64,000 nt of DNA from Ostreibacterium oceani (lineage in GTDB: Bacteria > Pseudomonadota > Gammaproteobacteria > Cardiobacteriales > Ostreibacteriaceae): positions 62,001-126,000 of the forward strand of contig NZ_WHNW01000001.1 in assembly GCF_009362845.1 (NCBI RefSeq), written 5' to 3'. Positions 2,630 through 35,959 of the stretch are shown in pieces. The number at the start of each line of letters is the position of its first letter. Positions within the stretch are counted from its first letter, which is position 1. The notes under the pieces are model-generated. The model did not search any database and was not told where the DNA came from. It was given only the letters and a program-made list of their open reading frames with translations. The translations under genes were made by a program, and so were the position numbers.

Positions 2630-4450
2630 ATGAATAAAACGGTTTTAGCGCCAGACTTAGGAAGCGATGAAGGGTTTCCCGTGGTTGAAATATTAGCAAA
2701 AGTAGGCGACAAACTCGCAAAAGATGACCCGATTTTACTGCTAGAGTCAGACAAAGCATCGATGGAAATAGGCGCAACCGAGGCAGGAACCCTCACCGAA
2801 ATTTGCTTGTCCGTTAATGATACGGTGAAATCACACCAATGCGTTGCGAAAATGACGGTAGATGGCGGTACTGATAGCGATGCCAATAAAGATGCGAATA
2901 AAAAAACAGCAACGCAGACCAATTCGTCAGCGGCAGATGAACCATCAAAGTCACCATCAAAGCCACAATCAAAGCCACAATCAAAGCCACAATCAAAGCC
3001 ACAATCAAAGCCACAGACAAGCCCGCAATCAAAAACAAATACAACAGATGCTGATATTCAGTGCGATTTGGTCGTGTTGGGGTCTGGCCCTGGCGGTTAT
3101 TCGGCGGCTTTTCGGGCAGCAGATTTGGGGCTATCAACTGTGTTGATTGAAAAATACCCTAATCTTGGCGGTGTATGTCTCAATGTTGGTTGTATTCCGT
3201 CGAAAGCCTTGCTACATACGGCGCATATTAGCGAAGAGGCCATGGCATTAAGCCAGCACGGTATTCATTTTGAAGCACCGACGATTAAACTGGATGCGAT
3301 TCGTGCTGACAAAGACAAGGTGGTAAATAAACTAAATCAAGGCATTGCAGGCATGGCTAAAATGCGCAAGGTTCAGGTGGTGCAAGGGGTTGGTACCTTT
3401 GTTGATGAAAATTTGCTTGAAGTCATTCACGAGGGCAGCGCCAAGACGGTTGCTTTTGACAAAGCCATCATTGCCTGTGGCTCAGCGCCGATTCAACTGC
3501 CATTTATGCCTGATGATCCGAGAATTATTGATTCGACGGGCGCGTTGGAATTACCCTTTATTCCGAAACACATGTTGGTGATTGGCGGTGGCGTGATTGG
3601 ACTGGAAATGGCGACCGTTTATTCGGCATTGGGCGCGAAAATATCGGTGGTTGAACTGTCTGATAGCCTGATGCCAGGCGCTGACGCTGATCTCACCAAA
3701 GTCTGGCTCAAAGCCAACGAATCGCGTTTCGAAGACGTGTTATTAAACACCAAAGTAACTGCTGCAACGGCTAAAAAAGCAGGCATAGAAATTACCTTTA
3801 GCGGCGAAACGTCAGGTAAAAAAACCTACGATTTGGTCTTGGTAGCAGTAGGGCGTAGCCCGAATGGCCGTAAAATTGAAGCAGATAATGCAGGCATTAC
3901 CGTTGATGAGCGTGGGTTTATCCCTGTCGATTCTCAAATGCGCACCAACGTGCCGCATATCTTTGCGATTGGTGATGTCGTTGGTCAGCCGATGTTAGCG
4001 CATAAAGCGGTGCATGAAGGGCATGTGGCTGCTGAGGTTGCGGCAGGGCACAAAACCCACTTTGATGCCTGTGTTATTCCTTCGGTTGCCTATACTTTCC
4101 CCGAAATTGCCTTTGCTGGCGTGACTGAGACAGAGGCCAACGCCAAAAAATTGGCGTATAAAACCAGCGTATTTCCTTGGCAAGCCTCGGGCAAAGCGAT
4201 TGCCTGTCATACCGATACTGGCTTTACTAAGCTGCTCTTTGATCCAGAGACTAACCGTATCATTGGTGGTAGTGTGGTTGGGCTGAATGCGGGTGATTTG
4301 ATTGCTGAAATTTGCCTTGCCATTGAAATGGGTGCCGATGCCAATGATATCGGTAAAACTATCCACCCACACCCCACGCTGTCAGAGTCGGTCGGTATGG
4401 CAGCCGAACATTTTCATGGGCACTGTACGGATTTACCACCCAAAAAATAA
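2630..4450 (+). CDS. lpdA: Dihydrolipoyl dehydrogenase with N-terminal lipoyl domain (E3)
   Basis: Reoxidises dihydrolipoamide using FAD and NAD+ in 2-oxoacid dehydrogenase complexes. Residues 1-80 form a biotinyl/lipoyl domain with the modified lysine in ESDKASME (Lys42). A Ser/Lys/Pro/Gln-rich linker follows at about 100-140. The E3 body starts at GSGPGGYSAA and has the redox-active pair in GGVCLNVGCIP (Cys183, Cys188), a second nucleotide-binding motif GGGVIGLEM and the C-terminal HPHPTLSE catalytic motif. At 606 aa it is about 130 aa longer than plain E3, as known for E3 proteins fused to a lipoyl domain, for example in Neisseria. No E1 or E2 gene is nearby, so the partner complex lies elsewhere. 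Confidence 0.95.
   Translation: MNKTVLAPDLGSDEGFPVVEILAKVGDKLAKDDPILLLESDKASMEIGATEAGTLTEICLSVNDTVKSHQCVAKMTVDGGTDSDANKDANKKTATQTNSSAADEPSKSPSKPQSKPQSKPQSKPQSKPQTSPQSKTNTTDADIQCDLVVLGSGPGGYSAAFRAADLGLSTVLIEKYPNLGGVCLNVGCIPSKALLHTAHISEEAMALSQHGIHFEAPTIKLDAIRADKDKVVNKLNQGIAGMAKMRKVQVVQGVGTFVDENLLEVIHEGSAKTVAFDKAIIACGSAPIQLPFMPDDPRIIDSTGALELPFIPKHMLVIGGGVIGLEMATVYSALGAKISVVELSDSLMPGADADLTKVWLKANESRFEDVLLNTKVTAATAKKAGIEITFSGETSGKKTYDLVLVAVGRSPNGRKIEADNAGITVDERGFIPVDSQMRTNVPHIFAIGDVVGQPMLAHKAVHEGHVAAEVAAGHKTHFDACVIPSVAYTFPEIAFAGVTETEANAKKLAYKTSVFPWQASGKAIACHTDTGFTKLLFDPETNRIIGGSVVGLNAGDLIAEICLAIEMGADANDIGKTIHPHPTLSESVGMAAEHFHGHCTDLPPKK
2957..3016 (+). repeat. In-frame 12-bp tandem repeat in the lpdA linker
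   Basis: Five copies of TCAAAGCCACAA (last base differs in the final copy) encode Ser-Lys-Pro-Gln units of the flexible linker between lipoyl and E3 domains. Related imperfect units flank it. Confidence 0.95.
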
Positions 4451-24183: not shown

Positions 24184-25577
24184 ATGACATTACTGTTGCT
24201 ATTATTGGTGGCGGCCCAGCGGGTTTAAGTGCTGCACGAGTATTAGCAGAAAACCAAGTCTCTTGTTTATTACTAGACGAGCAAGCCAGTTTGGGTGGGC
24301 AAATATATCGGGGCATCGAACACGTCAGTCAGCAATATGCTGGGCGTGCAGAAAAACTCGGTGCGGACTATTTACACGGCCTTGCGTTAACACAAGGATT
24401 GCCTGAGAAGCATTTGCAACGCGTTTTAAATGCTAAAGTCTGGAGTGTAAACACATCTGGCCAAATTGTGTATTCTGTTGGCGCACAATCGTATCAAGTG
24501 AAAGCGAAGTATGTGGTATTGGCTACGGGTGCACAGGAAAGACCTTTTGCGTTTCCGGGCTGGACGCTGCCTGGAGTGATGACGGCTGGTGCAGCACAAA
24601 TTCTTCTTAAGGCACACGGCGTAGCGGTAAAAAATTCAGTTTTAATTGGGAATGGCCCTCTATTATACTTGTTAGCGAGCCAATTATTAGCATTCGGCCA
24701 CCCTCCGCAAGCGATTGTTGAGACGCAGGCTAAAAATGCTTGGAAAAACGCCTTGCCTCATTTACCCAACGCGATGCTATATGGCAGTTCTTATCTTTGG
24801 AAGGGCATTAAAATGCTTGCTTTAATCAAGAAAGCAGGAATCCAGCATTACACCAAGGCTTGTGATATTCATGCGATTGGGGTCGAATCATTGCAGCAGA
24901 TACGCTTTCAACAAGGCGGTAAAACGCATACCTTAAATACGCAGAATGCTTTGATTCATCAGGGGGTAATTCCTAATACGCAAATAAGTCGCGCTTTGAA
25001 TTTGCAGCATTTTTGGAGTGAGCAGCAGCAGACTTGGTTGCCTGTTACACATCAAAGCGGTGAAAGTAGTCTAGAGAATATCTATATCGCTGGTGATGGC
25101 GCAAGTATTGGTGGAGCGACTGTTGCGCGTTTTTCGGGTGAACAGGTAGCTTTGCAGCTACTTAAAAAAATGGGTGTATTTACGCAAACGCAATATAATT
25201 CCAGAGCAAGGCCATTAAACAAACAGTTGCGAGTTGAGCTTGCTGTACGCCCGTTTTTGGATTATCGTTATGCACCTGACAATCGCACTATGTTGAATAA
25301 TAGTTCGACATTGGTATGTCGATGTGAAGAAGTCAGTGTAGGGCAATTACGCGAGCACGCCCGCCAAGGTTGTTTAGGCTTAAATCAAACTAAGACCTTT
25401 AGCCGTTGTGGTATGGGGCCTTGCCAAGGGAGACAGTGTGGTGTAAATGCGGCTTTAGTGTTAGCAGATGAGCGCAAACTGTCGCCCGATAAAATTGATT
25501 ATTATCGCATACGGCCGGTCATTAAACCTGTAACACTAGCCGAAGTGGCTAGCTTAGCGAAAGAAGAAACAAATTAA
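24180..25577 (+). CDS. FAD/NAD(P)-binding oxidoreductase with C-terminal BFD-like [2Fe-2S] domain
   Basis: Large subunit (465 aa) of the dehydrogenase, related to OoxA/NoxA, LhpE and HcnB. It has a dinucleotide motif IIGGGPAGLSAARVL, a second one around SVLIGNGPLLYLLA, and the C-terminal bacterioferritin-associated-ferredoxin-like domain with cysteines at CRCEE (380, 382) and SRCGMGPCQGRQC (410, 415, 420). In homologues this subunit accepts electrons from the DAO subunit and hands them to the respiratory chain or another acceptor. Four-base overlap with the iron-sulfur subunit; 16 bp to the RidA gene. Confidence 0.87.
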   Translation: MNDITVAIIGGGPAGLSAARVLAENQVSCLLLDEQASLGGQIYRGIEHVSQQYAGRAEKLGADYLHGLALTQGLPEKHLQRVLNAKVWSVNTSGQIVYSVGAQSYQVKAKYVVLATGAQERPFAFPGWTLPGVMTAGAAQILLKAHGVAVKNSVLIGNGPLLYLLASQLLAFGHPPQAIVETQAKNAWKNALPHLPNAMLYGSSYLWKGIKMLALIKKAGIQHYTKACDIHAIGVESLQQIRFQQGGKTHTLNTQNALIHQGVIPNTQISRALNLQHFWSEQQQTWLPVTHQSGESSLENIYIAGDGASIGGATVARFSGEQVALQLLKKMGVFTQTQYNSRARPLNKQLRVELAVRPFLDYRYAPDNRTMLNNSSTLVCRCEEVSVGQLREHARQGCLGLNQTKTFSRCGMGPCQGRQCGVNAALVLADERKLSPDKIDYYRIRPVIKPVTLAEVASLAKEETN

Positions 25578-25593
25578 AAGGAGCTGAATAAAT

Positions 25594-25938
25594 ATGAGTA
25601 TTGAACGTTTGCATACTGGTCAAAGAATGAGCAAGATTGTCCGCCATAATGGTGTGGTTTACTTGTGTGGTCAGGTCGGTGAAGGTGTGAGTATTACCGA
25701 ACAAACTGAGAGCTGTTTGGCTCGAGTTGATGCGCTGCTAAAAGAGGCTGGAAGTAGTCGGGAGCATATTTTGCAAGCAATTGTTTGGTTGAGTGATATG
25801 CAGTATTTTGCCGAGATGAATAGCGTCTGGGATGCGTGGGTACCATCAGAGCATGCCCCAGCTCGCGCCTGTGGCGAAGCAAAACTAGCGAGACCTGAGC
25901 TGTTGGTCGAAGTGATTGTCACAGCAGCGGTTGCTTGA
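25594..25938 (+). CDS. RidA (YjgF/YER057c/UK114) family enamine/imine deaminase
   Basis: RidA-type proteins hydrolyse reactive enamine/imine products of amino-acid oxidation to keto acids and ammonia. The 114-aa length is typical, and CGQVGE, the mid-protein helix ([11 protein letters not shown]) and the C-terminal [22 protein letters not shown] with its conserved arginine are visible. Being last in the dehydrogenase operon, it most likely clears the imine made by the upstream enzyme, which supports an amine or amino-acid substrate. AAAGGAG precedes ATG 25594. A 17-bp palindrome (GATTATC ATT GATAATC) covers its stop. Confidence 0.9.
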
Positions 25939-25953
25939 TTATCATTGATAATC
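25937..25953. terminator. Short palindrome at the end of the dehydrogenase operon
   Basis: GATTATC-ATT-GATAATC, 7-bp arms overlapping the stop of the RidA gene. No proper T-run follows, so it is at best a weak terminator. Confidence 0.35.
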
Positions 25954-25972
25954 GTATTTGATGTATTTGAGA

Positions 25973-26443
25973 ATGAAAAAACACCATTATAAGGCGCAAA
26001 TTGAGTGGACGGGAAACGAGGGCGATGGCACGCTGAATTACCGCGCTTATAATAGAAACCATCAAATCCAAATTGATGGCAAAACCCCCGCAATAGCAGG
26101 CTCGGCGGACCCTGCTTTTTTAGGCGATAAATCAAGGTATAACCCAGAGGACTTGTTTTTATCGTCGATATCGGCTTGTCATATGCTATGGTATTTGCAC
26201 TTATGCTCGGTGCATCATATTGTCGTTACGGAATATGTAGACTACGCCACAGGGGTGATGGCAGAAACAGACGATGGCAGCGGACGATTTACCGAAGTCA
26301 CGCTACACCCACACGTAGTGATCACAGACGCTAGCCACATACCCAAAGCAAACGAACTGCACGAGACCGCGAATAAAATGTGTTTTATTGCAAATTCGTG
26401 TAATTTCAACATAGGGCATGAGCCCAATACGCGGGCACAGTAA
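25973..26443 (+). CDS. OsmC family protein
   Basis: Homodimeric OsmC/Ohr-fold protein of 156 aa; relatives reduce organic hydroperoxides using a cysteine pair. It has the family region LFLSSISACHMLWYLHLC with the first conserved cysteine, and a second cysteine in NKMCFIANSCNFNI near the end, fitting the YhfA/OsmC-like subgroup. I choose ATG 25973 because homology begins at once (MKKHHYKAQIEWTG); the upstream TTG/ATG have no Shine-Dalgarno. It sits 34 bp after the RidA gene on the same strand. The last 40 bases reappear in decayed form at 27918-27960. Confidence 0.85.
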   Translation: MKKHHYKAQIEWTGNEGDGTLNYRAYNRNHQIQIDGKTPAIAGSADPAFLGDKSRYNPEDLFLSSISACHMLWYLHLCSVHHIVVTEYVDYATGVMAETDDGSGRFTEVTLHPHVVITDASHIPKANELHETANKMCFIANSCNFNIGHEPNTRAQ

Positions 26444-26511
26444 CGCCGACTTTAATGCGCGTTGGGTTGTTTTAAGCCGGCTGCTGCTGGGTGACGCAGT
26501 GTATCATGCCA
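26400..26511. repeat. Parental copy of the osmC/deiminase 3'-end duplication
   Basis: Two blocks here, 26400-26443 (end of osmC) and 26470-26511 (end of the deiminase gene), are repeated in the same order and orientation at 27918-28008. The second block includes 25 identical bases (26475-26499). Confidence 0.85.
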
Positions 26512-27635
26512 CCGTTTTCGTAGAGGTCTCTAACATCAATGCCAACTACGCTTCTGTTAGGATACAGTGATTGAATGATGTCATTGGCAATGGTGTCATT
26601 TGGGTCTTGATAATTAGGTACTAAAACCACCGTGTTGGCGATGTAATAATTGACATATGAGCCTTTATAGCCAAGGTCGCTGCCACTTGATTTTTTTACT
26701 GTGTTTTTGGTTAATGGCACAGTAACAAAATTGTATGGCTTTTCCTGTTTATTTTTTGCACCATACAGCGTTTTAATGTCCTTGGCGGTCACATCAAATT
26801 CAAGTAAATCATGTTTATTCATGGTGACGATGGTGCTTGCATTGCCAAAACGGGCAAAACCATCAATGTGCTGATCGGTTAAATCCAGACCTGCTTGTCC
26901 GTCTAGCCAGATAAAGTGACTTGCGCCTAAATATTCGGTAAAAATGGCCTCAATCTGTGCTTGGCTCATGCCAGGATTTCGGTTGTCGTTGATAATCGAA
27001 CTTTTACATGCCATTAAGGTGCCATGTCCATCAATTTCAACACTGCCACCTTCGTTAATTAAGGTTTTGTTTAGGTCTATTAACGGTATGCCTTGTGCTT
27101 GTGCAATCTTTTTAGGAATGGCATTGCAATTGGTAAAGCCAATTGGCTGATTTGATTCTTCATCGCTTTTTTGTCCCCAGCCATTAAATCCCCAATCTTG
27201 AATGACCAAATTGCCATGCATATCGCGGGCATAAATTGGTCCATTATCTCTTACCCAAACATCATCCGTTTTAAAGCGGTAGAAATCGACATGCGTTAAA
27301 TCAATGTTGTTTTTATTGAGTAAGTCGATAATACGTTTTTCTTCCTTTTCATTGTAAGCAATAATATGCACATTTTCGCTGCCGGCCAATGCCTGAGTCA
27401 TTGCCACCCAAGTAGCATCTAAGCGATTACGGTAGGGCACACCATATTGGTAGTGGTGCGGCCATTGCAACCAAGTCCCTTCGTGTAATTCACTTTCGTC
27501 TGGCATGGTATAGCGAATTTGAGTTTGCATGTTGTTTTTTTTAAGTGTCGTTTGTGAAGCGGCAAATACAGTAGAGATATAACTCATCAAAGGTAGTGCT
27601 GCCACTGTGGTTTTAAGTAATTGTCTTTTACGCAT
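26472..27635 (-). CDS. Agmatine deiminase / peptidylarginine-deiminase family, with signal peptide
   Basis: Guanidine-modifying enzyme of the PAD_porph family; agmatine deiminases release ammonia to give N-carbamoylputrescine. Family landmarks are MPDESELHEGTWLQWPH, the catalytic region DVWVRDNGPIYARD, EGGSVEIDGHGTLM, HIDGFARF and the terminal MIHCVTQQQPA with nucleophile Cys380. Unlike cytoplasmic AguA, this protein has a leader (MRKRQLLKTTVAALPLM...STVFAA, about 26 aa), so I infer export to the periplasm. The next in-frame ATG (residue 36) would give a cytoplasmic form. No putrescine-pathway partner (aguB, ornithine transporter) is adjacent. A decayed second copy of its 3' end lies at 27967-28008. 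Confidence 0.88.
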   Translation of the reverse strand: MRKRQLLKTTVAALPLMSYISTVFAASQTTLKKNNMQTQIRYTMPDESELHEGTWLQWPHHYQYGVPYRNRLDATWVAMTQALAGSENVHIIAYNEKEEKRIIDLLNKNNIDLTHVDFYRFKTDDVWVRDNGPIYARDMHGNLVIQDWGFNGWGQKSDEESNQPIGFTNCNAIPKKIAQAQGIPLIDLNKTLINEGGSVEIDGHGTLMACKSSIINDNRNPGMSQAQIEAIFTEYLGASHFIWLDGQAGLDLTDQHIDGFARFGNASTIVTMNKHDLLEFDVTAKDIKTLYGAKNKQEKPYNFVTVPLTKNTVKKSSGSDLGYKGSYVNYYIANTVVLVPNYQDPNDTIANDIIQSLYPNRSVVGIDVRDLYENGGMIHCVTQQQPA

Positions 27636-27781
27636 GTTTTAACAATCATGTTACGTGGTAAATACCGTTGTCTCATGTTGAGTCAAAACGGTTAGCAGTG
27701 CCTTTAAAAAGCGTTAGCAGCACGATGTAATTTTACATCCTAACGACTAACAGTCAAGGCGCGGATGTCCTTTATCATTGC

Positions 27782-27895
27782 CTTAAGCGTATGCCGAGGA
27801 CTATCTTCTATTCAAATTCCAAGTGTCACATTTTTCCTTATAATTGGGTATAATTATAATCGGCGCAATCGGTGGGTGTCCGATATTTAGTCACA
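27782..27895 (+). repeat. Dispersed ~100-bp repeat, copy A
   Basis: Starts at TTAAGCGTATGCC and includes the invariant CTATTCAAATTCCAAGTGTC, AATTGGGTATAATTA and TCGGTGGGTGTCCGATATTTA. Closely similar to copy B (28476-28573) with a 9-bp partial duplication (CGCAATCGG) as the main difference. Lies about 150 bp upstream of the deiminase gene. Confidence 0.85.
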
Positions 27896-27917
27896 CGACA
27901 TTTAGTCACAAACTCGA

Positions 27918-28008
27918 GTAATTTCAACATAGGGCATGAACTCAATACGCGTGCAGAATAGTGGGTGTTATAGCCGGCTGCTGCTGGGTGACGCAGCATT
28001 TTATGCCA
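27918..28008. pseudogene. Fossil second copy of osmC and deiminase 3' ends
   Basis: Bases 27918-27960 match the last 44 bases of osmC with a few substitutions, and 27967-28008 match the 3' end of the deiminase gene. Read on the minus strand the second block still encodes CVTQQQPA, the catalytic-cysteine tail. The spacer between the two blocks is shortened. This is what remains of a duplicated or replaced deiminase gene. Confidence 0.8.
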
Positions 28009-28018
28009 TTAAAATTGA

Positions 28019-28375
28019 TTAGATACGAGTTTTGGGTGCAGCTTCGTGACCTGAATCACCAGAATTAGGTTCTCCTTTTGGCTCAATCAGTAACACTTTC
28101 ACTTCGTTTTCAGCTCTCGGGCGATGAACAACCCCTTTGGGGACGACGAACAACTCACCAGCCTTGACCGTGTGGGATGGGCCGCCTTCAATATCTATTT
28201 GCATCTCACCTTCTAGCACGTAGAAAAAGTCGTCTGTGGTGTCGTGTTTATGAAATGGGTATTCTCCAATAAACTTGACTACCATAACATCATTGTCGTT
28301 GTAATCGGAGACCACATGTGGATCCCAGTGTGTCGAGAAACACGCCAATTTTTCCGCGAGATTTATTGATTTCAT
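28019..28375 (-). CDS. Small cupin-domain protein
   Basis: Single-domain cupin of 118 aa. The metal-binding motif 1 is seen as YPFHKHDTTDDFFYVLEGEMQI (His, His, Asp/Glu) and motif 2 as ELFVVPKGVVHRP. Such proteins may be dioxygenases, isomerases or sensors; the sequence does not say which. Start at ATG 28375 with AGGA in the preceding AATAGGATAAC; the longer frame to 28420 lacks a ribosome-binding site. Repeat copy B lies about 100 bp upstream. It ends only 11 bp from the deiminase fossil. Confidence 0.85.
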   Translation of the reverse strand: MKSINLAEKLACFSTHWDPHVVSDYNDNDVMVVKFIGEYPFHKHDTTDDFFYVLEGEMQIDIEGGPSHTVKAGELFVVPKGVVHRPRAENEVKVLLIEPKGEPNSGDSGHEAAPKTRI

Positions 28376-28420
28376 TGTTGTTATCCTATTGCTATTAAAG
28401 TGTACTGTAGAGTTTGTCAA

Positions 28421-28766
28421 AATTTTAACTGAAATTTTATATAAGAAGTTCTATGTGGAATTATAGGCTGATTTTTAAGCGTATGCCTAGGGCAATATTC
28501 TATTCAAATTCCAAGTGTCCTATATTTACGGCAATTGGGTATAATTACAATCGGTGGGTGTCCGATATTTACGGCACGTCTGTCAGTTATTGTCTGTTTT
28601 TCGGGTCTCGTGGCATTACCGCTAACGGTTTGCAGCTTGGCGAAATGGCGGAAATCGAAGCACAAAAGTTTAGTTTTGCACAAATATTCAATCGAAGAAC
28701 TGCCGTTGAATTTAGCACTAAACCCGCTATTTTGTCAAACTGCTGTTGTGCGTTCGGCTTTTTGTT
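28421..28766. other. Intergenic region with repeat copy B
   Basis: Contains repeat copy B and, to its right, about 190 bp (28575-28765) of foreign-looking sequence immediately downstream of the alkX-like gene. Small open frames here (28453-28770, 28535-28813) have no recognisable content and run through the repeat, so I do not call genes. Confidence 0.65.
28476..28580 (+). repeat. Dispersed ~100-bp repeat, copy B
   Basis: Same orientation as copy A and most of its length identical, including TATTCAAATTCCAAGTGTC and GGTGGGTGTCCGATATTTA. About 100 bp upstream of the cupin gene and on the opposite side of the AlkX island from copy C. Confidence 0.85.
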
Positions 28767-29960
28767 TTAGGTTAATAATTGTCTTATTTTATCTGTCAGT
28801 TTTGATGGACTAACTTTTGTCAATTTAATATGTTCACAACCATTAAAAGTCGCAAATGATTTTATAATTTTTACAAATGGTTTTTTCCATAATTCAATGT
28901 CAATGTTTGTGTTTTCAATATGCAAATGTATGATTTCAAATTCTTTTTCTTTTCGGTGAGCTTTGCAATCCACTCGTCCGATAAATGTGTCGCCAAATAA
29001 GATAGGTAAACAAAAATAGCCGTATTGCCTTTTTTCTTTTGGTGTATAGCATTCAATTTTATAATCAAAGTCAAAAAATTGCTTTACTCGGTCTCGATGA
29101 ATAATTGAATTGTCAAATGGCGATAAAATACGAATGCTTGAATTGGTTTTGTTTAAGGGTTTTTCAAGTAAATTTTTATTCACAAAAACAGAAGGCATAT
29201 TTTCAATATTTACTTGTTGTATTGTTCCTTCTTGAAGCATCGATTTTAATACTTTATCAACATTTTTTCGTATTAATTCTCCTGTTTTAAGGTGTGTGAT
29301 TTGCTTTACGGTTGTAAATCCGTACGCATTTAAATAAGTTTTTACTAAATATTCTGCAAATTCAAGGTCAGTTGGTAAGGTTGTGTTAATTGATTTTGGT
29401 AAAACATTTTCAGTGAGGTCGTACGTTTTTTGCATTCCGTTTCTGCTCGAAATCATTAAATCGCCTTGTAGAAAAAGTCTTTCCAGTGCTATTTTTGTAG
29501 GTTTCCAGCTCCACCAACTTCCTGCTTTTTTTGTCTCATTTTCAAAATCTCTTGCTTTTTTTGGACCTTCTCCACGAATAGTGTCCAATACATATTTCAT
29601 CACTTTTGCGTCTGCATTGTAATAATGCGTTTTGCTTTGTTTCACTTCTAACATTTGAGGTAATACAAAACGAAAATTTTTCATTGGAAGATATGATGCA
29701 GCGTGAAACCAATATTCAAACACTTTTCGTTCTTCAACTAACTCATCTAAATATTCCGTTGTATAATCGGGAATTCTTGTCCAAAGTGTGTGATGATGGG
29801 CTCTTTCAATAATTGACAAAGTATCAATTTGTAAATATCCGAGATGTTCTAATGCTTTAAGAACTGCATCTTTACCTTTTCCAAAAGGATATGGCTTTGT
29901 TAATCCTTGACTTTCTAATGTCAAAAAACGAAGTTGTCGTAAAGTCAATTCTTCCGTCAT
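28767..29960 (-). CDS. AlkX/YcaQ-type DNA glycosylase (HTH_42 winged-helix family)
   Basis: Protein of 397 aa of the family formerly called winged helix DNA-binding domain-containing protein. YcaQ/AlkX members unhook interstrand DNA crosslinks by removing N7-alkylated purines. The Gln-Phi-Asp catalytic motif is visible as LQIDTLSIIERAHHHTLWTR (Gln44, Asp46), and the tandem winged-helix part follows. Codon use is clearly more A/T-rich (many AAA, TTT, AAT) than in neighbouring core genes, and its sequence style suggests a Bacteroidetes-like donor; that is inference. It starts 5 bp after the GyrI-like gene, as a two-gene operon. Confidence 0.82.
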   Translation of the reverse strand: MTEELTLRQLRFLTLESQGLTKPYPFGKGKDAVLKALEHLGYLQIDTLSIIERAHHHTLWTRIPDYTTEYLDELVEERKVFEYWFHAASYLPMKNFRFVLPQMLEVKQSKTHYYNADAKVMKYVLDTIRGEGPKKARDFENETKKAGSWWSWKPTKIALERLFLQGDLMISSRNGMQKTYDLTENVLPKSINTTLPTDLEFAEYLVKTYLNAYGFTTVKQITHLKTGELIRKNVDKVLKSMLQEGTIQQVNIENMPSVFVNKNLLEKPLNKTNSSIRILSPFDNSIIHRDRVKQFFDFDYKIECYTPKEKRQYGYFCLPILFGDTFIGRVDCKAHRKEKEFEIIHLHIENTNIDIELWKKPFVKIIKSFATFNGCEHIKLTKVSPSKLTDKIRQLLT

Positions 29961-29965
29961 AAATT

Positions 29966-30403
29966 TTAATCAATAATTGAAATATAGGTTTCAATTTCTG
30001 CGTTGTCTCCGTCAAAATACTTTTGTCCGTGAACTGTTACATCTGCACGGTAAGCTCTTTTTAGTTCAGTATCCTGCCAAATTTCTGTCCAAGTTTTCAA
30101 TATAGCTTCGGGCATTTTTCCTTTTGAAGTGTATTTTACATTTGAACCAATTGAAACGTTTCGTCCCACTAAATCATCTGGAATATTGTCCAATGTTGTT
30201 ACAGGAAAGCCAATGATTAAGGTATATTTTCCTGTATAATCACTTTCGTAGTCTGTATAAACAGCATAAAATTCGTCACTTACTTTGTTGGGTATTTTGT
30301 CAGTGATGTTTTCTCCCCAAAACCTGCCCCAAAGCGTTTCAATGTCAACCATTGATTCGTTTGTCGTTTCAGTTGAGATGCCTATAATTTTGAAATCGTT
30401 CAT
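29966..30403 (-). CDS. GyrI-like / effector-binding domain protein
   Basis: A 145-aa stand-alone GyrI-like domain, the small-molecule binding fold also found in AraC/MerR-type regulators. Features are the start FKIIGISTETTNES, the helix containing LWGRFWGENITDKIPNK, YAVYTDYESDYTGKYTLIIG, and the C-terminal TWTEIWQDTELKRAYRADV. No DNA-binding domain. It shares the A/T-rich base use of the glycosylase gene it precedes by 5 bp. Some GyrI-like proteins hydrolyse or sequester DNA-damaging cyclopropyl compounds, which would make sense with a crosslink glycosylase; this is suggestive only. Confidence 0.82.
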   Translation of the reverse strand: MNDFKIIGISTETTNESMVDIETLWGRFWGENITDKIPNKVSDEFYAVYTDYESDYTGKYTLIIGFPVTTLDNIPDDLVGRNVSIGSNVKYTSKGKMPEAILKTWTEIWQDTELKRAYRADVTVHGQKYFDGDNAEIETYISIID

Positions 30404-30462
30404 ATTTTTTTCGTTGGTTTGTTTTTGCAGAATGTTCGTTTAAGCTGACGCACAACATCCGA

Positions 30463-30482
30463 ATAAACGAACATTCGTTTAT
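30463..30482. promoter_or_regulatory. ATAAACGAA-CA-TTCGTTTAT inverted repeat upstream of gyrI-like gene
   Basis: Nine-base perfect arms with a 2-base centre, extended outwards by CCG/CGG with one unpaired A. It lies about 60 bp before the GyrI-like start. It could be an operator or a recombination-site hairpin; related single motifs occur on both sides. Confidence 0.4.
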
Positions 30483-30581
30483 CGGGGCTATAGGTTATGC
30501 TAAAAATTCGTTTATTCGTCATATTAAATGAGATATGGGCGCAAAGCAATCCTTGTTATTTAGTTTTCGTTAATAGTTGGC

Positions 30582-30676
30582 GCTGTAAAAATATTGGACA
30601 AACAATATAGAATAGACAAAATAGAACACTTGAAATTTAAATAAAATACAGCCCTCGGTATATCGTTCCAAATTAG
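30582..30676 (-). repeat. Dispersed ~100-bp repeat, copy C (inverted, diverged)
   Basis: Read on the minus strand it aligns with copy B: ATACCGAGGGCTGTATTTTA, TTCAAGTGTTCTAT and TTTGTCCAATATTTTTAC match the corresponding B blocks with substitutions and a small deletion. Opposite orientation to A and B, so B and C bracket the GyrI/AlkX genes as an inverted pair. Confidence 0.65.
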
Positions 30677-30789
30677 CATCGAACTTTCCCTGAACGCTTT
30701 AATTGAGTTTGTATGTTCTAATTTGGTTGCAATAAATTTTTGGCTATCCAAGATATACGCTATATGCCAGTATGAAAATCAATGCATTA

Positions 30790-31602
30790 TCAGCGAGTAG
30801 CGCGTAAGTAAATCACATAATAGACAAAGGCGACAAAGAATCCGCCGCCAACAATATTGCCGGCTGTGACGGGGATGAGGTTTTGTAGCATGTCGTTAAG
30901 GCCAATCAGGGGTTCGCTTTGTCCGGTAAAGCGCTGTAGTAACATCGCCATTGGGATGAAAAATAGATTGGCAATACTGTGTTCGAACCCAGCGGCCACA
31001 AACGCGGCAATAGGCAGGACGATGGCGGCTATTTTATCAATTACGCTGCGCCCGGCCATTGCCATCCAAATCGCCATGCAGACTAAAACATTACATAAGA
31101 TACCTTTAAAAAAGGCGCTGCTCATTGATAGATTAATCTTTGCCTGTGCGATGTCAATATAGGTTTTTGCAACCGCGCCACCATTGGCATTGCCTTGCTC
31201 GGCGAAAAGTAACAGCAGCGCCAATCCTAACGCGCCAATGCCATTTCCAAGAAATACGATGCCCCAGTTTCGTAGTAATTGGGCCGTGGTGATTTTTTTA
31301 TCCGCCCACGCCATGACTAATAAATTATTGCCGGTAAATAATTCCGCGCCGGCGATAACCACTAAAATCAAACCGAGCGAAAATACCAAACCGCCAAACC
31401 ACTGCGTTACGGCAAAGGATAAGCTGGCATCGGCTTTCACCAATACAAAGCTCATCGCACCAAGGCCAATAAACGCGCCTGCTAATAATGCCAGCATGAA
31501 TAGCGGCAGCCACGCAAGGTTTGCTTTCGTTACGCCAATGGATTCGACGCGCGCGGCTATTTCTTGTGGCGAGTAGGCATTAAAGTCAAATACGCTTTTC
31601 AT
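30790..31602 (-). CDS. Formate/nitrite transporter (FNT) family channel
   Basis: Pentameric inner-membrane channel for small monovalent anions. The 270-aa protein has six transmembrane segments and both FNT signatures: GAELFTGNNLLVMAW in the middle and AAGFEHSIANLFFIPMAM with the central histidine in the second half, followed by GNIVGGGFFVAFVYYVIYLR. FocA (formate), NirC (nitrite) and FdhC all fit; no formate-lyase, nitrite-reductase or formate-dehydrogenase gene is adjacent, so I do not assign one. Base use returns to that of the core genome, so this gene probably lies outside the foreign island. Confidence 0.9.
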   Translation of the reverse strand: MKSVFDFNAYSPQEIAARVESIGVTKANLAWLPLFMLALLAGAFIGLGAMSFVLVKADASLSFAVTQWFGGLVFSLGLILVVIAGAELFTGNNLLVMAWADKKITTAQLLRNWGIVFLGNGIGALGLALLLLFAEQGNANGGAVAKTYIDIAQAKINLSMSSAFFKGILCNVLVCMAIWMAMAGRSVIDKIAAIVLPIAAFVAAGFEHSIANLFFIPMAMLLQRFTGQSEPLIGLNDMLQNLIPVTAGNIVGGGFFVAFVYYVIYLRATR

Positions 31603-35664: not shown

Positions 35665-35818
35665 GTGTCGCCTGTTGGTGTAGCTGCCTTGTCGTAACTT
35701 GGTTGCCCTTGTTACCTTCCTTGTTGCCCTCCTTGTTGCCCCTTGGTAGCTGGTTAACTGGTTAGCTGGTTAGCCCCTTGTCGCTACTGCACCACGCTAT
35801 TGCATGTGCCACGCTACT

Positions 35819-35880
35819 GAGTCGCACTATTGAGCCGCACTATTGAGCCGCACTATTGAGCCGCACTATTGAGCCACATT
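35819..35880 (+). repeat. 13-bp tandem array between clpX and lon
   Basis: GAGTCGCACTATT followed by three exact copies of GAGCCGCACTATT (35832-35870) and a broken fifth unit. Confidence 0.92.
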
Positions 35881-35959
35881 AGTGCATTATATTATACTGC
35901 TACACTATTGCGCGGCAGGTTGGCTTGTGGATTGCTTTGTGGATTGCTCTGTGGATTGT

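Follow-up and report, generated by a model that had tools for sequence, protein, structure and literature searches.

Fossil duplication of the osmC and deiminase 3' ends, and an attC-like repeat, in a locus of Ostreibacterium oceani

Homology-facilitated illegitimate recombination proceeds through one homologous and one illegitimate joint. It would yield the topology of the locus described here, for which transformation itself is only hypothetical. Tandem duplications of about 100-900 kb, induced by transformation and bordered by IS repeats, have been described in Streptococcus pneumoniae (PMC3784515). As portrayed in that account, these merodiploids resemble the present locus in having direct repeats at the duplication joint and one copy that is free to change; here, however, the duplication measures about 1.5 kb and its second copy is reduced to its ends (PMC3784515). 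In a report on Riemerella anatipestifer, a 140-base 3' segment of aph(3')-IVb is likened to attC, and integration is said to occur without flanking homology (PMC13148043). By description, that segment is like the repeat reported below, which is also a hairpin of about 140 bases 3' of an acquired gene, but here the hairpin follows an AlkZ-like gene in a gammaproteobacterial chromosome (PMC13148043). Neither the locus nor the hairpin family was found described in the open-licence literature on illegitimate recombination with tandem duplication, Bacteroidetes integrons and Riemerella cassettes. The fossil duplication is real and ordinary in kind; of greater interest is a side finding, an attC-like repeat in a gammaproteobacterium.

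Two direct units with shared ends

The window analyzed is a stretch of 64,000 nucleotides of the O. oceani genome, and all positions refer to it. Its relevant features, beginning at osmC, are as follows.

25973-26443, plus strand: intact osmC-family gene, the last 52 bases of which form the left part of block A
26391-26511: block A, made up of the osmC 3' end, intergenic bases and the deiminase 3' end
26472-27635, minus strand: PAD_porph / agmatine-deiminase-like gene, intact, 387 amino acids
27783-27889, plus strand: R1, right end of unit 1; left side truncated relative to R2 and R3
27890-27908: putative joint of the duplication, where R1 meets block B within a tandem 15-mer (27881-27895 / 27896-27910)
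27909-28008: block B, fossil copy of the 3' ends of osmC and the deiminase gene
28019-28420, minus strand: cupin gene (Cupin_2) filling unit 2; ORF as listed, the true start probably being an internal ATG
28475-28571, plus strand: R2, right end of unit 2, similar to R3 as far left as about 28457

An initial annotation had claimed that the 3' ends of osmC and of the deiminase gene recur in order and in the same orientation. Alignment bears this out, as does a self-BLAST of the 5.6 kb from 25400 to 31000, in which the block A/block B pair has an E value of 3e-14. The positions first proposed were correct to within about 9 bases, block B beginning at 27909 rather than 27918. Aligned globally over their whole length, the two blocks have 87 identities in 100 ungapped positions, with 13 mismatches and 21 gap columns; a single gap of about 21 columns separates the osmC-tail and deiminase-tail parts. 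Self-comparison of 25400-29000 matches the osmC tails (26391-26442 with 27909-27960) at 45 of 52 positions and the deiminase tails (26475-26511 with 27972-28008) at 33 of 37. The run of 25 identical bases is also present as claimed, at 26475-26499 and 27972-27996, its minus strand encoding CVTQQQPA. When the source genome (2.18 Mb, 36 contigs) was searched, each block matched only its second copy (E 3.3e-13) and no third copy was found. The two E values exclude a chance match, and with a divergence of 12-13% the pair is not an assembly duplicate. Among 369 genomes of the class, block B and R1 are present only in that of O. oceani; the other 368 lack them.

The osmC product matches Pfam OsmC (PF02566) at 57.2 bits, against a cut-off of 27.5, and the gene is native-like in GC3 (0.497). 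About half of the differences in the osmC tail, counted by eye, are synonymous, as expected if block A was kept under constraint while block B drifted. No function is evident for block B, which we take to be neutral relic DNA.

The initial annotation lacked a further direct repeat pair, R1 and R2, identical at 86 of 97 ungapped positions. The order along the chromosome is block A, deiminase, R1, block B, cupin, R2, with block B starting 20 bases from the end of R1. The locus is thereby divided into two direct units with shared ends and different genes inside, one running from the osmC and deiminase 3' ends through the deiminase to R1, the other from the same two ends through the cupin to R2. 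The two repeat pairs have diverged to the same degree, but both are short (100 and 97 aligned positions) and equality of age is therefore a loose statement.

R3, listed below, is a third copy, diverged and inverted; its alignment scores 65, whereas 1000 shuffles gave no more than 43 and 1224 stretches of the window no more than 33. R2 and R3 have in common about 18 bases on the left that R1 lacks; 7 of 1500 random pairs scored as high. No further strong copy of R1 or R2 was found in the genome, none was found in the plasmids searched, two exact R patterns had no match in viral contigs, and Rfam returned nothing up to an E value of 1 across 25400-31000. Folded as single sequences, R1 and R2 are unremarkable (z -0.8 and -1.2). 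An identity of R as a RAYT/REP element was rejected on the absence of a Y1_Tnp domain from the genome. An identity as a Bacteroidota repeat was likewise rejected: the matches, in 8 of 295 genomes of one Bacteroidota class, are only 19-24 bases long and were taken as chance.

Other tandem repeats were observed in the window. A 12-base repeat at 2917-3048, within a dihydrolipoamide-dehydrogenase-like gene (2630-4450), encodes an SKPQ-type linker, and a 13-base repeat (TGAGCCGCACTAT) lies at 35805-35908 between clpX-like and lon-like genes, named by eye from their translations.

Acquired genes between osmC and focA

The deiminase matches PF04371 over the full profile (9e-88; 295 bits against a cut-off of 25). 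Its score to the agmatine deiminase equivalog NCBIfam TIGR03380, 194.9 bits, falls below the cut-off of 381.8, so that the name "agmatine deiminase" is taken from PF04371 family membership and does not establish the substrate. Its relatives (80 kept of 117 confirmed) are 54-73% identical and nearly all Bacteroidota by title, the exceptions among the 80 being L039 (Crocosphaera) and L024 (titled "bacterium"). An 84-row tree places it as sister to an Ekhidna sequence (98/89), nested in Bacteroidota within a set of nine rows whose other members all belong to that phylum (98/94). Only two genomes of the 369 in the class, besides that of O. oceani, reach E 1e-100 for the deiminase, at 54-55% identity, and grouping the gene with these two was mildly rejected in a reduced tree of 30 of the 84 rows (p-AU 0.038). 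Judged by its sequence relationships, the deiminase is clearly a foreign gene of Bacteroidota type. Its GC3 lies within the range of 39 window genes, and by that measure it is not a recent arrival. No osmC-deiminase neighborhood was seen in six loci examined from other gammaproteobacteria. A gammaproteobacterial genome (G105) carries two adjacent deiminase-family genes (L116:4798-7050), 51% and 29% identical to that of the window; from these identities they were judged too unlike each other to represent the same duplication.

The cupin has 83% amino acid identity to a Sinorhizobium homologue, with similar matches in other Rhizobiales, in a tblastn search of the plasmid collection only. Beyond R2 lie the following.

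28610-28766, minus strand: attC-like hairpin repeat, Bacteroidota type, directly 3' of the AlkZ-like gene
28767-29960, minus strand: AlkZ-like DNA glycosylase gene (PF06224, 6e-68); GC 31%
29966-30403, minus strand: Cass2 / GyrI-like effector-binding gene (PF14526, 3e-20); GC 35%
about 30580-30682, minus strand: R3, diverged inverted copy of R

The GC3 values of the AlkZ-like gene (0.22, z -5.0) and of Cass2 (0.30, z -3.4) are below those of all 39 comparison genes. The relatives of both proteins on plasmids are distant, and a relative of the AlkZ-like protein occurs in only 2 of 16 genomes that have a deiminase relative, at 42-43% identity; with relatives so distant and scarce, the proteins do not show the source of the pair. 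R2 and R3 flank this A+T-rich pair in the manner of terminal inverted repeats. The osmC-focA interval is a pile of acquired genes: a Bacteroidota-type deiminase, a Rhizobiales-like cupin and the A+T-rich AlkZ-Cass2 pair.

A hairpin repeat that resembles attC

Plasmid sequences similar to the repeat that lies 3' of the AlkZ-like gene come from Flavobacterium (83% over 130 bases), Myroides, Empedobacter, Chryseobacterium, Haliscomenobacter and Riemerella. Of the 11 matching plasmid records, 10 are Bacteroidota by name; the remaining one, from Pararhizobium, matches over 29 bases. A plasmid of RCAD0416, a Riemerella strain named in PMC13148043, matches parts of 28389-28766 and 30404-30789 in the window. 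Within the O. oceani genome the repeat occurs once; 24 other genomes were searched, one of them titled "bacterium" only, and 6 gave matches. At 8 of 10 evaluable loci, as in the window, it lies no more than about 50 bases after a stop codon and in the same orientation (11 loci were examined, one of which is truncated by a contig end; the two exceptions are L103 and L105). At one of the eight (L020:4980-6257) the repeat lies about 15 bases past the stop codon of a deiminase-family gene from Ferruginibacter, related to that of the window. The other genes that precede the repeat are diverse, and include S41 peptidases, a copper oxidase, a histidine kinase and an FG-GAP protein.

Nine aligned copies, those of the window and 8 of the 11 matching loci (L103, with two partial matches, and the partial L120 and L123 were left out), share an 18-pair stem that was derived from the same alignment as the covariation test; 89.5% of its cells are paired and 10 pairs have changed on both sides, a result reached in 0 of 500 shuffles. 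Shifting the stem partner by one to three columns reduces the pairing to 40-55%. The ends of the repeat, CTAACG and CTGTTGTGCG, appear complementary by eye, and single-sequence folds of two hairpin candidates are modest (z -1.6 each). The second candidate, at 30435-30580 upstream of Cass2, has just a 40-base plasmid match. The repeat is like the attC sites of integrons in being a site of fixed orientation directly 3' of a gene and in forming a conserved imperfect hairpin. It is of Bacteroidota type and, on these sequence features, resembles an attC site.

Origin of the arrangement

We consider the locus best explained, with somewhat better than even confidence, by one tandem duplication followed by replacement of most of the second deiminase by the cupin. 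A Bacteroidota-derived deiminase gene would already have stood beside osmC when a segment running from the osmC 3' end through the deiminase to R, a unit of about 1518 bp (26391-27908), was duplicated in tandem. The joint of R1 and block B would be the duplication breakpoint, with block B the fossil left end of the second copy and R2 its surviving right end. Illegitimate recombination would then have put an alphaproteobacterial cupin gene in place of the second deiminase's body and upstream region, so that 37 bases of the deiminase 3' end were left. We infer a single event, its direction and the replacement step. The similar identities of A to B (87/100) and R1 to R2 (86/97), with their common order, point to one duplication, and the presence of deiminase 3' parts in both copies, in order and orientation, indicates that the deiminase was beside osmC beforehand. 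The interval between block B and R2 (28009-28474) holds no remnant of the deiminase body or upstream region (score 28, shuffle maximum 43); with the cupin in that place, this argues that the second copy was exchanged and not merely deleted. The initial annotation had offered a tandem duplication, mostly deleted, or a deiminase swapped in at the shared ends. The former fits best, except that the lost part was replaced by the cupin and the far end survives as R2. The latter agrees with the foreign character of the deiminase, but the deiminase 3' end is in both copies, and any gene swapped in would need to have been re-imported from a sibling lineage. Against a single duplication stands the want of the left extension of about 18 bases in R1, which calls for an extra deletion there or an altered unit 1; the 368 other genomes of the class showed no intermediate arrangement.

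A merger of two alleles, which we regard as possible but distinctly less probable, would give an identical topology. A sibling lineage would have carried osmC, the deiminase 3' end, the cupin and R after its own exchange of deiminase for cupin, and a fragment of either form would have been added by a homologous crossover, in R or in the block, and an illegitimate joint, the 12% divergence predating the joining. No exchange of cupin for deiminase within one duplicated chromosome is then necessary, and the differing left flanks of R1 and R2 are accounted for, as is the retention of frame and stop position in the osmC tail of block B; merodiploidy driven by transformation and involving repeats is documented in the S. 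pneumoniae account (PMC3784515). The merger requires an unseen sibling, however, and the half-synonymous osmC-tail differences are explained equally well by neutral decay of one copy. It is improbable that R is a mobile or target repeat at the borders of acquired genes, the two repeat pairs being separate and their arrangement a hot-spot coincidence. R does lie at the border of every acquired unit, with R3 an inverted third copy beyond AlkZ-Cass2, but there is no Y1 transposase domain and no convincing further R copy in the genome, R is absent from the 295 Bacteroidota-class genomes (apart from the 19-24-base matches), the 368 others of its own class and the plasmids, and equal divergence and abutting order are left unexplained. 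We hold it equally doubtful that the osmC-focA interval accepts genes of two phyla through a site-specific pathway that uses attC-like hairpins and needs no resident integron. This reading draws on the Ferruginibacter deiminase relative, whose stop codon is closely followed by the same hairpin; in this view the deiminase, cupin and AlkZ-Cass2 would be cassettes and the fossil a cassette-for-cassette exchange between shared ends. Retention of block B for a function, such as a transcription terminator copied to a new place, is very improbable indeed. A terminator-like hairpin does lie at 27979-27998 on the plus strand, but this is the wrong orientation for the minus-strand cupin, no plus-strand gene ends there, and such sites are common here (9 in 25900-31000, against a shuffled mean of 4.6). 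The terminator was rejected on its strand and on this near twofold excess across the region.

With duplication and replacement as the preferred explanation, the fossil would order the events in the locus: the Bacteroidota-type deiminase came to stand beside osmC, the duplication was next and the cupin later. The locus would be a compact example of tandem duplication freeing space for gene replacement. The occurrence in a gammaproteobacterium of a Bacteroidota attC-like hairpin, together with an A+T-rich gene pair, bears on how cassettes of this kind cross phyla, a question recently raised for the resistance genes of Riemerella.
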